DNA of 64,000 bases. It comes from an uncultured Selenomonadales bacterium (GTDB taxonomy: Bacteria; Bacillota; Negativicutes; Selenomonadales; Selenomonadaceae). The notes beneath the pieces were generated by a model. The model saw only the letters and a program-made list of their open reading frames with translations, searched no databases and had not been told where the DNA came from. Positions 36,183 through 40,060 of this stretch are shown piece after piece. The translations under genes and the position numbers were made by a program. The stretch's first letter is position 1. The number at the start of each line of letters is the position of its first letter. Location: positions 1 to 64,000 of the forward strand of contig CAMHCS010000005.1 of assembly GCA_946183785.1 (NCBI GenBank), given 5' to 3'.

Positions 36183-37961
36183 TCATTTCCTGTTTCTTCG
36201 GCGATCATGCTTCGTATAATAGGCAGCCTTTTCCTGATACATGACTCGATCCGCCCGGCGGAAGACTTCCTGATACTCCGTGTCTTCTCCGGGCTGGAAA
36301 ACAGCGGCTCCTTTGGAAACGGAAAGAAGCGTCTTATACGGTCTGTCCGCATGTTGATTCGACGCCATCTTTTGTTCCAAATCCTGATAATACCGTTCTA
36401 TATCGCTCGGCTGCATTCCGTCCAGGATTACAATAAACTCGTCTCCGCCAATCCGGTAGATATGATCCTTTCCAAACACTTTCTTCAACATTTGCGCCGT
36501 ATCGGCAATCGCAAGGTCGCCGCACTCGTGCCCGTATTCGTCGTTGATTTCTTTCAGCCTGTTCAGATCAAACATAAAAACTGTGAACGACGCTTTTCCC
36601 TGCCGAATCTCCTGATTCAGGGAATGGATTTTTTCCAGATAAGCGGTCTTGTTGCTGACCCCGGTCATCCCGTCGGTGACAGCAATCTTTCTGAGCTTTC
36701 GGTTCGCCTCTTGCAGTTCTTCCGTTGTAGCTGTAATAAATGTGGCCAGCCGATTGATCATGGAAACCTTGCCTTCGAGGTCTCGTTCCGCCCTGTGGAA
36801 TTCCGCAGCGGAATGCTCTTTCGCTTCGCCCTCCCGCATAATGGCAATGACCTGCGTTATATTGTGCTGGTCGACGCGATCGCCCGTCCGCAAAAACTCC
36901 CCGGAGGTATAAAACCCGGAAGTGGGCGCAACCATCTGATAAGGTTCGGTTTCTTTTCCCACCTCGCTGTTTCCCCAAAACGTACGGCGCGCCGCACAGG
37001 AAAAGACGAAAATGCACTCCGGCGCATACTTCAGGAATCTGTTTCCCTCCTTCCATACGGAATCCAGGATCGTCCACGGATCGCCATAGGCAATCCTCAC
37101 CTGTACGCCCTGGCGCATATTCGAAGTCATGGTCAGCGAACCGTCCGGATTGCTTGCGACCGGGGCGCGCATGATATCAATGCCGTGCTCCCGGTACAGG
37201 AAGGGAAACTCCAATGTATTGTTGAAAAAATATTCGTCGTCGCGAATATGCAGATACTTGTAATACGTTTCATACGCCGGACGATGATTCAGTTCCCTGA
37301 GAACGCATCCGTCCGCCATCGTGACGTCCATAAAGGAACCGAGCGGTTTCCAGCCGGTGACATAGGAACTCTCAATGTGGAAATCGTCGCCGCCGAAGAG
37401 GATAAAAACGACGCCGTGCTCCATATATCCTCCTGTCCCGGAAAAAACACACGCGTCATTTTTTCCCAGGTCCTCGCAAAAAGCCCCTCCCCCAAAAATC
37501 TGAACACCCGGCCGAACACGGGAAAGGCCGTCGCAAAGCGACGTCATCGACATGCCGCGAATCGTGACAAGCATCTCCACCGCCTTGACCCACGGCCTTT
37601 TTTCGACTTCGCCCGCCAGCTTTTCGGCAACGCTATCCTGCATGCCGGGCGCCATCGGATACTGCAGCAATTCCACTTTTGTGGAAGGATACTCGAACAG
37701 CGTGCAGACAACGGCAACCGACCCGCTTGAAAAATCGCCGCTCACGATATTCCCATAGGTCGAGCAGCCTGCATAAACAGCTTCCGGCAGTATCCGTCCG
37801 ATGGTTTCACCAACATGCGCAATCCGGCTGCTGTCCAGACTTTCAGTGAAGATTTGAATCATCACATTGGAACAAAGGCTGCTTCTTACCCACCGCCGCA
37901 GTTTTCGCAACTCTTCTTCGAGGGTTTTGTCATCCTGAAAGGTAAACTGATATTGTTTCAT
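36183..37961 (-). CDS. FIST-domain diguanylate cyclase
   Basis: A 592-residue soluble protein. Residues about 30-390 form FIST N and C sensor domains (IGRILPEAVYAGCSTYGNIVSGDF; CIFVFSCAARRTFWG; APTSGFYTSGEF), proposed for sensing small ligands in the cytoplasm. A coiled linker (DLEGKVSMINRLATFITATTEELQEANRKL) leads to a GGDEF domain with the exact RIGGDEF. The inhibitory I-site is degenerate (FGKD in place of RxxD). It would make cyclic di-GMP upon ligand sensing. It converges on the hydrolase gene with only 3 bases between stops. Confidence 0.92.
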   Translation of the reverse strand: MKQYQFTFQDDKTLEEELRKLRRWVRSSLCSNVMIQIFTESLDSSRIAHVGETIGRILPEAVYAGCSTYGNIVSGDFSSGSVAVVCTLFEYPSTKVELLQYPMAPGMQDSVAEKLAGEVEKRPWVKAVEMLVTIRGMSMTSLCDGLSRVRPGVQIFGGGAFCEDLGKNDACVFSGTGGYMEHGVVFILFGGDDFHIESSYVTGWKPLGSFMDVTMADGCVLRELNHRPAYETYYKYLHIRDDEYFFNNTLEFPFLYREHGIDIMRAPVASNPDGSLTMTSNMRQGVQVRIAYGDPWTILDSVWKEGNRFLKYAPECIFVFSCAARRTFWGNSEVGKETEPYQMVAPTSGFYTSGEFLRTGDRVDQHNITQVIAIMREGEAKEHSAAEFHRAERDLEGKVSMINRLATFITATTEELQEANRKLRKIAVTDGMTGVSNKTAYLEKIHSLNQEIRQGKASFTVFMFDLNRLKEINDEYGHECGDLAIADTAQMLKKVFGKDHIYRIGGDEFIVILDGMQPSDIERYYQDLEQKMASNQHADRPYKTLLSVSKGAAVFQPGEDTEYQEVFRRADRVMYQEKAAYYTKHDRRRNRK

Positions 37962-38147: not shown

Positions 38148-38176
38148 TTGCCCTGTTCTCCGTTTCATGCTATAAT
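38148..38176 (+). promoter_or_regulatory. Promoter of the hydG leader RNA
   Basis: TTGCCC (38148-38153), a 17-base spacer and TATAAT (38171-38176), with TG extending the -10 box. Transcription should start near 38183. Confidence 0.75.
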
Positions 38177-38182
38177 ACCTCC

Positions 38183-38338
38183 AGCAAGGCGGAAGGCTTA
38201 CTGACGCCAAGCGCGGGAAAAATGCAACCCCAAGGGATCACTGAAAAAGTCCCGCCGCGCCCCCTGCCGGGTCACGACCTGACTTATTCCGTGATTCCCA
38301 AGAACTCCCTGCGACGCCTTGCGGGGAGCTTTTATTTT
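38183..38338 (+). ncRNA. Structured leader or small RNA ending in a terminator, upstream of hydG
   Basis: About 155 bases. The basal helix GCAAGGCG (38184-38191) pairs perfectly with CGCCTTGC (38315-38322). Inside are an arm GCGCGGGA/TCCCGC-C-GCGC (38211-38218 with 38250-38260) and an arm GGG-TCACG/CGTGA-TT-CCC (38269-38276 with 38290-38299). The 3' strand of the basal helix is also the loop and part of the terminator stem (38305-38328), so the two are mutually exclusive. That layout suggests a riboswitch or attenuator for the operon starting at 38365. A free-standing 6S-like RNA is the main alternative. I matched it to no known class. Confidence 0.6.
38305..38338 (+). terminator. Terminator of the hydG leader RNA
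   Basis: CTCCCTGC (38305-38312) pairs with GCGGGGAG (38321-38328) with one G-U pair. TTTTATTTT follows (38330-38338). It ends 26 bases before the first gene of the operon. Confidence 0.75.
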
Positions 38339-38364
38339 GCACGATGTAAGCGGGAGGATTACGT

Positions 38365-38625
38365 ATGGAAAACAGAGTGGCCTTGATTGGCATTATCGTA
38401 AGCGACCGTTCGGCAGCGGAAAAGATGAACGCGATCCTGCACGAGTACGGCGACTATATTATCGGACGCATGGGCGTGCCATATAAGAAGCGCGGCATTT
38501 CCGTCATCAGCGTCGTAGTGGACGCCCCGGCGGACGTGGTCAGCGCTCTTTCCGGCAAGCTCGGCGCCCTGAAGGACGTCAGTACGAAGACGGTCTATAC
38601 GAAGACCTCCGACGACGAGGAGTGA
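38365..38625 (+). CDS. TM1266-type iron-only hydrogenase system regulator
   Basis: An 86-residue protein with an ACT-like beta-alpha-beta pattern (RVALIGIIVSDRSAAEKMNAIL; GISVISVVVDAPADVVSALSGKLG). It matches small proteins encoded beside [FeFe]-hydrogenase maturation genes (TM1266/YP_0 type), proposed as regulators. Its position 4 bases before hydG supports this. GGGAGG precedes ATG 38365. Direct DNA or ligand binding has not been read from the sequence. Confidence 0.85.
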   Translation: MENRVALIGIIVSDRSAAEKMNAILHEYGDYIIGRMGVPYKKRGISVISVVVDAPADVVSALSGKLGALKDVSTKTVYTKTSDDEE

Positions 38626-38629
38626 CGAC

Positions 38630-40060
38630 ATGGAGAACTTGAAATACGATCCGAAATCCCTGCGCGCCGAGGAGTTTATTCATCACGGCGAAATCATGGA
38701 TTCTCTCGCTTATGCCGAGGAAAACAAGTCGAACCGCGCCCTGATCGAAGGGCTGCTCGACCGCGCCGTCGACTGCAAGGGGCTGACACACCGCGAGGCG
38801 GCGGTACTGCTGGCCTGCGATTTACCCGACCTGAACGAGAAGATGTTCTCGTTGGCGAAAAAAATCAAGGAAGAACTGTACGGGCAGCGCATCGTGCTGT
38901 TCGCGCCGCTGTACCTTTCGAATTACTGCATCAACAGCTGCGTTTATTGCCCGTATCACGCGAAGAACAGGAACATTCGCCGCAAGAAGCTGACGCAGGA
39001 AGAAATCCGCCGCGAAGTCGTCGCGCTCCAGGACATGGGACATAAGCGTCTCGCGCTGGAGACCGGCGAGGACCCTGTAAACAACCCGATCGAGTACGTG
39101 CTGGAAAGCATTAAGACCATTTACTCCATCAAGCATAAAAACGGCGCGATCCGGCGCGTCAACGTCAATATCGCCGCGACGACGGTGGAGAATTACCGCC
39201 GCCTGAAAGAGGCGGGTATCGGCACGTACATCCTTTTCCAGGAAACGTATCACAAGGAGAATTATGAAAAGCTGCACCCCGCCGGACCGAAGCACGACTA
39301 CGCATGGCACACGGAGGCGATGGACCGCGCCATGGAGGGCGGCATCGACGACGTGGGCTGCGGCGTGCTGTTCGGGCTGAATCTTTACCGTTATGATTTC
39401 GTCGGGCTCTTGATGCACGCCGAACATTTGGAGGCCGTGCACGGCGTCGGGCCGCACACCATCAGCGTGCCGCGTATCCGCCCCGCCGACGACATCGATC
39501 CTTCCGCATTCTCCAACGCCATCGACGACGACACCTTCGCAAAGCTCGTCGCGGTCATCCGCATCGCCGTACCGTACACGGGCATGATCGTCTCAACGCG
39601 GGAATCCGAAGAAAGCCGCAAGCGCGTCCTCGATCTTGGTATCTCCCAAATTTCCGGCGCGTCCTCGACCAGCGTCGGCGGCTACGAGAAAAAGGAACGC
39701 CCGGAGGAGAATTCCGCCCAGTTCGACGTGAACGACACGCGAACGCTGGACGAGGTCGTTCAGTGGCTCCTCGACCTCGGCTACGTGCCGAGCTTCTGCA
39801 CGGCCTGCTACCGCGCGGGACGCACCGGCGACCGCTTCATGGCGCTCTGCAAAAGCGGGCAAATCAAGAACTGCTGCCTGCCCAACGCGCTGATGACGCT
39901 GAAGGAATACCTCGAAGACTACGCCAGCGAGGAAACGCAGAAGAAAGGCGAAGCCGTCATCAAGGCCCAGCTGGAGGAAATCCCCAGTCCCGCCGTCCGT
40001 GCGAAAGCGGCGGAATACCTGAAAGAGCTCCACGACGGCATGAGGGACTTCCGGTTTTGA
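38630..40060 (+). CDS. hydG: [FeFe] hydrogenase maturase HydG
   Basis: A 476-residue radical SAM enzyme of normal length. The SAM cluster motif is CINSCVYCPYH (Cys-x3-Cys-x2-Cys, about 103-110). The C-terminal auxiliary-cluster cysteines are in SFCTACYRAGRTG and IKNCCLPNA. HydG cleaves tyrosine and makes the CO- and CN-bearing iron unit of the hydrogenase H-cluster. HydE, HydF and the hydrogenase itself are not in this window. It follows the TM1266-like gene and is probably co-transcribed with it. Its TGA overlaps a TTG start of a small downstream gene. Confidence 0.96.
   Translation: MENLKYDPKSLRAEEFIHHGEIMDSLAYAEENKSNRALIEGLLDRAVDCKGLTHREAAVLLACDLPDLNEKMFSLAKKIKEELYGQRIVLFAPLYLSNYCINSCVYCPYHAKNRNIRRKKLTQEEIRREVVALQDMGHKRLALETGEDPVNNPIEYVLESIKTIYSIKHKNGAIRRVNVNIAATTVENYRRLKEAGIGTYILFQETYHKENYEKLHPAGPKHDYAWHTEAMDRAMEGGIDDVGCGVLFGLNLYRYDFVGLLMHAEHLEAVHGVGPHTISVPRIRPADDIDPSAFSNAIDDDTFAKLVAVIRIAVPYTGMIVSTRESEESRKRVLDLGISQISGASSTSVGGYEKKERPEENSAQFDVNDTRTLDEVVQWLLDLGYVPSFCTACYRAGRTGDRFMALCKSGQIKNCCLPNALMTLKEYLEDYASEETQKKGEAVIKAQLEEIPSPAVRAKAAEYLKELHDGMRDFRF

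Follow-up and report, generated by a model that had tools for sequence, protein, structure and literature searches.

Within the 64,000-nucleotide stretch of DNA analysed here (the window), a gene for a TM1266-family protein of 86 residues is followed by hydG, and the two are preceded by a promoter, a 29-nt hairpin and an intrinsic terminator (Table 1). The two genes had been named in the original prediction, together with a strong promoter and a terminator upstream of them; the matches to TIGR03959 (115 bits, cut-off 60.8) and TIGR03955 agreed with the gene assignments, and both leader signals were located. The terminator hairpin proper spans 38305-38328 and is followed by CTTTTATTTT. Promoter, hairpin and terminator were all retained in seven relatives of the window genus, in which the -10 element and its gap of 6-8 nt to the hairpin were also maintained. 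The leader has its intergenic region in common with a divergent gene for a FIST-GGDEF protein (36183-37961, minus strand), and a second promoter-like site (TTGACG-17-TATAAT) was seen there on the minus strand at 38094-38066.

Table 1. Features of the TM1266-hydG leader and of the genes behind it, in window positions
Feature	Position	Strand	Sequence, evidence or remark
Extended -10 promoter	38148..38176	+	TTGCCC-17-TATAAT with extended TG
Conserved double tandem-G·A hairpin	38184..38212	+	GC-AA-GGCG-GA-AGGCTTACU-GA-CGCC-AA-GC
P1 5' strand of antiterminator	38184..38191	+	GCAAGGCG; 5 bp conserved, 8 bp in window
P3 5' strand of antiterminator	38212..38217	+	CGCGGG; pairs with terminator 5' arm
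Palindromic repeat insertion inside P3 loop	~38233..38300 (edges approximate)	.	MITE-like, internally deleted copy
Intrinsic terminator	38305..38338	+	10-bp stem and U tract
P3 3' strand	38308..38313	+	CCTGCG; shared with terminator 5' arm
P1 3' strand	38315..38322	+	CGCCTTGC; shared with terminator loop and 3' arm
TM1266-family protein (NikR-C/ACT fold), candidate RNA-binding autoregulator	38365..38625	+	
hydG, H-cluster radical SAM maturase	38630..40060	+	TIGR03955, 921 bits

The leader was more stably folded than its dinucleotide shuffles (z -3.0), with 1 of 200 shuffles as good. The approximately 130 bases of folded RNA claimed for it thus held as to the folding, but about half of this length was found to be an inserted repeat. 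The inserted segment matched a repeat scattered through this genome (G000) in at least 40 copies, probably a MITE, and the site was empty in the seven same-genus relatives (L031-L036, L005), where the leader is continuous. Other copies in the genome had a common left end, AAGGAAGCACTGAATAAGTC, and extended well past the 41-60 aligned bases, and the window copy was a short palindrome with an internal deletion. Discounting the insertion leaves an ancestral leader of just ~85 nt. The repeat had entered the terminal loop of P3, a position in which an independently folding hairpin was presumably tolerated.

The eight genus leaders (window, L031-L036, L005) were aligned after removal of the insertion. 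All of them retained GCAARGCGGAAGG…CUGACGCCRAGCGCGGGAAAA followed by the terminator, and in L031 and L032 the apical loop contained an additional hairpin. The perfect 8-bp basal helix of the original prediction was confirmed in the window, with its 3' strand in the 3' arm of the terminator, but this 8-bp form of P1 was found elsewhere only in L031 and L032, and just 5 bp (GCAAR/YUUGC) were conserved genus-wide. The pairs of P1, P2 and P3 that were checked were standard in 8/8 leaders apart from one P2 pair of the window, and a few terminator pairs were missing in some of the eight. Unconstrained folding of the full leader gave the hairpin and the terminator in seven of the eight members, the exception being L035 with a different fold; the hairpin was complete in the window, L031-L034 and L036, and its outer pairing was shifted in L005. 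When the RNA was ended immediately 5' of the terminator G-run, a P1/P2/P3-type antiterminator was predicted, cleanly in L033, L034, L035 and L005 and approximately in the others. As the P1 and P3 bases are common to both, the full hairpin and this three-way antiterminator are mutually exclusive. A conserved terminator and a mutually exclusive alternative structure, the two marks of a transcription attenuator, were therefore both present, and as far as sequence can indicate, an attenuator preceding TM1266-hydG is well supported. The claim that the basal helix prevents termination agreed with the conserved terminator and with an antiterminator built from the terminator's own bases.

The hairpin pattern recurred upstream of TM1266 homologues from Clostridia and from other groups. 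Its consensus is CUGA-N4-RA-AGg…CUGA-N4'-RA-AG, in which two tandem G·A loops flank a covarying helix; the hairpin is nearly two-fold symmetric and its apical loop is variable. A model built from 22 such sites of the Clostridia type, with the window genus left out (R2), located additional sites at the same positions, and its match to the window was weak (E 4.3) but exactly on the hairpin (38187-38210). The window variant (GC:GC, AA) deviates from the CUGA/AAG consensus at the outer end, and subtypes in which the 5' strand is extended (CUGAAUGCAUGAGGGUUCGUCCCGAAUGAGAAGGC) were frequent in Clostridium and Negativicutes. With the covariance model R3, of which the window is a training row, the window hairpin was the sole match in the genome (E 7.6e-5). 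The model of the whole genus leader (R1) gave significant matches confined to the genus and weaker ones of at most 27 bits. Altogether, at least 14 Bacillota families carry a hairpin of this class upstream of TM1266 or hydG, and apparent tandem copies within one leader were seen in L341, L365, L370 and L383.

The copies were associated with two kinds of signal. A terminator lay between the element and the start codon in 57 of 67 leaders, and copies located directly 5' of hydG (L050, L099, L100, L103, L199, L201) abutted or overlapped its Shine-Dalgarno sequence. Leader-terminator complementarity amounted to 61%, compared with 41±6% for permuted pairs (maximum 56%), a mild excess that makes the antiterminator less certain outside the genus. 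Genus leaders form stable hairpins regardless, which would suit a plain promoter with a leaky terminator and a conserved hairpin that merely stabilises the mRNA, with no regulated switch. Such a reading is very improbable in view of the reuse of the element at ribosome-binding sites, the conservation of the loop letters across many families and the maintenance of the competing folds in the genus.

The statistical significance of the hairpin was assessed with a descriptor that scores the pairs and the loop A positions. The first descriptor alone was unspecific (shuffles up to 24.8), and shuffle, reverse-strand and sequence-only controls were added; the window site scored 27.85, which was reached by 0/2000 shuffles. 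Selection by letters only, with no pairing required, yielded 46 distinct sites against 1.45 expected in shuffles, and two sites on the reverse strand. At the letters-only sites, N4 pairing was 84%; when the partners were permuted 1000 times it averaged 45±3% and never exceeded 55%. In the 41 aligned sites including the window (A4), all nine pairs varied on both sides, with C-G exchanged for G-C at the outer position among these changes, the outer pairs being CU:AG, CC:GG, GU:AC (L188, L195) or GC:GC (window genus); since these rows were partly chosen by pairing, the letters-only test is the cleaner evidence for N4. The covariation in an earlier alignment (A2) was set aside as inflated, its rows having been picked by pairing, and the N4 test was redone with the letters-only selection. 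In an independent draw of 110 TM1266 loci across the phylum, 24 had the element upstream at p≤0.01 (approximately 1 expected) and six had it in the downstream gap, four of these being CUGA/CUAA-type copies; the far-upstream control regions of the independent TM1266 draw gave 0/30 matches. A loose DNA pattern with two mismatches allowed was uninformative across 299 genomes, a scan of viral contigs gave no matches, and six weak R3 matches that were examined (E >0.005) fell within or next to coding genes and were attributed to chance.

The element was present at 32/93 TM1266 loci (descriptor p≤0.02) and at 0/21 HydG loci of TM1266-free genomes (p≤0.05; Fisher p 0.0004), although lineage could explain part of this association, as the controls were mostly Selenomonadaceae and other Negativicutes. 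An R3 match at the TM1266/hydG locus was found in 31 of 40 TM1266-positive genomes, a partly circular count as many of these supplied training rows, and the sole R3 match at E <0.01 in 40 TM1266-negative genomes was inside a coding gene (G013, E 8e-5). Approximately two-thirds of the TM1266 genes had no upstream element detected at the threshold used; some of the undetected loci were clear subtype members that the descriptor scored low, and others were truly element-free. In G008, which belongs to the same genus, HydG is present and both TM1266 and the element are absent. Conversely, TM1266 is present and HydG is below the cut-off in G024, G039 and G212, with a clear element in G024 and G212. 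The element is thus kept with TM1266 in the absence of HydG, indicating that it tracks TM1266 rather than hydG. As in an autogenous leader, it stands at the gene of the candidate protein and is absent where that protein is absent. The original prediction named the finding of the RNA away from hydG in relatives as a refutation; this was so only for the few genomes with TM1266 and no HydG (G024, G039/G212) and for a second hairpin copy in G512, located with a terminator-like sequence before a NitT/TauT-type ABC transporter operon (L439, G512:C32:32701). The substrate of this transporter might point to the signal. Another exception was a copy in G601 just 3' of an [FeFe]-hydrogenase gene, identified by eye from a C-terminal motif like CPGGCIGGGGQP.

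Several other features were noted around these loci. In G039 (L290, 207-9256), TM1266 is followed by NifH-like, nitrogenase-component-like, HypF, HypE and HypD-like genes (by eye), and L291 (G212) is a second TM1266 locus in a genome with no HydG above the cut-off. Two near-identical TTTTGCCTATGGCAAAA palindromes precede the promoter of the TM1266-free hydG of G008 (L224), and the similar TTGCCTATGGCAA is found in the promoter region of L032; these may represent a putative Crp/Fnr-type operator.

The promoter-terminator distance would also suit a discrete RNA of ~155 nt, and a 6S-like or other free-standing small RNA had been offered as the alternative. Like the leader, 6S RNA (RF00013) is a folded RNA between a promoter and a terminator. 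No RF00013 match was obtained in the window or the leader, and the true 6S RNA of the genome was located elsewhere (L111, G000 C2:44355-44534, 79.8 bits). The element, moreover, nearly always adjoins TM1266 or hydG, often within operons, which leaves a free-standing RNA a chance close to nil. The claimed absence of a match to any known class was borne out: riboswitch, T-box and leader families of Rfam had no gathering-score match to the element, whether in the window, at 29 homologous loci or at 20 further ones, permissive Rfam scans gave chance-level matches only, and no description of a hydG, TM1266 or hydrogenase riboswitch or leader was found in the open-access papers searched. With respect to Rfam and these papers, the hairpin is regarded as a cis-regulatory RNA of attenuator type that had not been described.

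The predicted structure of TM1266 (pLDDT 91.7) matched 2NZC (Z 15.7), a TM1266 structure released in 2006 and listed only as an uncharacterised protein, and resembled the C-terminal domains of NikR (Z about 13; 2bj3, Z 13.2). R35, G37, P39, G64 and G67 were invariant in 154/154 sequences. The hairpin tip of the protein, PY[KR]x[KR] at 39-43, was basic in proteins whose genes have an element close by and was replaced (R/K/H-H/P-E-E/T) in 13 divergent homologues with no detectable element. The list of structure matches also contained RNA-contacting ACT and related folds, namely RelA on the ribosome and S6. The tip and the kinship of the modelled fold are no more than suggestive of RNA contact.

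We infer a direction of control, an effector and a signal for the element, whose covariation, genomic position, competing folds and association with TM1266 were observed in the sequences. The probability that the leader acts as a cis-acting OFF switch, with TM1266 itself as the most likely effector, is estimated at about 0.5. Transcription would start a few bases 5' of the hairpin, which lies at the transcript's 5' end and is probably the part bound by the effector. By default, the nascent RNA would adopt the three-way junction of P1 (GCAAG/CUUGC), the inner portion of the hairpin and P3 (CGCGGG/CCUGCG), occupying both terminator arms and allowing RNA polymerase to read through into TM1266-hydG. 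The effector would stabilise the complete 29-nt hairpin, whose outer GC:GC pairs would sequester P1 and P3 bases so that the terminator could form; in other species, the hairpin abutting or overlapping the hydG Shine-Dalgarno sequence would block translation. As the hairpin competes with the antiterminator here and abuts or overlaps Shine-Dalgarno sequences elsewhere, its stabilisation should mean OFF.

TM1266 is favoured as the binder because the RNA is symmetric, stands at the TM1266 gene itself and co-occurs with it. An oligomer of this protein, which has no DNA-binding domain, would bind the symmetric RNA and limit its own and HydG synthesis, perhaps when signalled by a metal or cofactor. 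In a wider and more tentative reading, TM1266 may be an ACT/NikR-C-fold RNA-binding regulator of [FeFe]-hydrogenase maturation across Bacillota that reads a two-fold symmetric hairpin. It might then, as we propose with equal reserve, control both termination and translation start, and would constitute a novel type of regulator that responds to a metal or cofactor and has a dedicated RNA element.

The chief alternative to TM1266 as the effector is a small ligand. The 29-nt hairpin would in this case be a true riboswitch, which we consider rather unlikely; it would bind an H-cluster-related metal or small molecule, for which tyrosine, SAM, Fe(II) or an Fe-CO/CN product would be candidates, and would switch through the same competing folds with no protein. 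Short stretches of strongly conserved letters in the loops, set against a helix that is free to vary, the use of the element with both terminators and ribosome-binding sites, and the tandem copies in some leaders are all compatible with a riboswitch, as is the copy before the ABC transporter, a location more easily reconciled with a ligand or a wider regulon than with autoregulation alone. The simple helix, however, lacks the junctions or pseudoknots of most aptamers, its apical loop is variable and its symmetry nearly two-fold, and the element is missing where HydG is present and TM1266 absent, including G008. The overlap of hairpin and terminator is also the layout of protein-dependent attenuators such as the LicT/SacY and PyrR sites, and the hairpin could be the site of another RNA-binding antiterminator or terminator protein that co-occurs with TM1266 by chance. 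This is improbable, since no candidate gene was found and the element co-occurs specifically with TM1266 and is located at TM1266's own gene.

The maturation of [FeFe]-hydrogenase is costly and toxic, as HydG makes CO and cyanide. A compact RNA element in at least 14 Bacillota families would open access to the control of this maturation, and would hint at what TM1266 does, a protein whose annotation goes no further than putative regulator of the hydrogenase system. Direct tests are feasible, as they involve a single 29-nt RNA and a single protein of 86 residues and can be read out as termination or as translation.

Among known systems, NikR has in its C-terminal domain the same beta-alpha-beta-beta-alpha-beta fold as TM1266, with a weak Pfam match below the cut-off; NikR carries a ribbon-helix-helix DNA-binding domain, which TM1266 lacks. 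Riboswitches that control terminators or Shine-Dalgarno sequences likewise use one element with either output, but the present element matches no Rfam class and is a small, nearly symmetric hairpin. The RAT of LicT/SacY is a hairpin of ~29 nt with two asymmetric internal loops, and this identity was rejected as both loops here are symmetric 2x2 loops with CUGA/RAAG letters. Autoregulation by attenuation is known for the L10(L12)4 leader of Bacillus subtilis (PMC4538822). In the L10 leader, as in the systems of LicT/SacY, PyrR and TRAP, a leader hairpin is also exclusive with a terminator or antiterminator, often under autogenous control; the leader described here differs from these protein-dependent attenuators in sequence, in loop geometry, with two symmetric 2x2 loops of tandem G·A, and in a candidate protein of the ACT/NikR-C fold.
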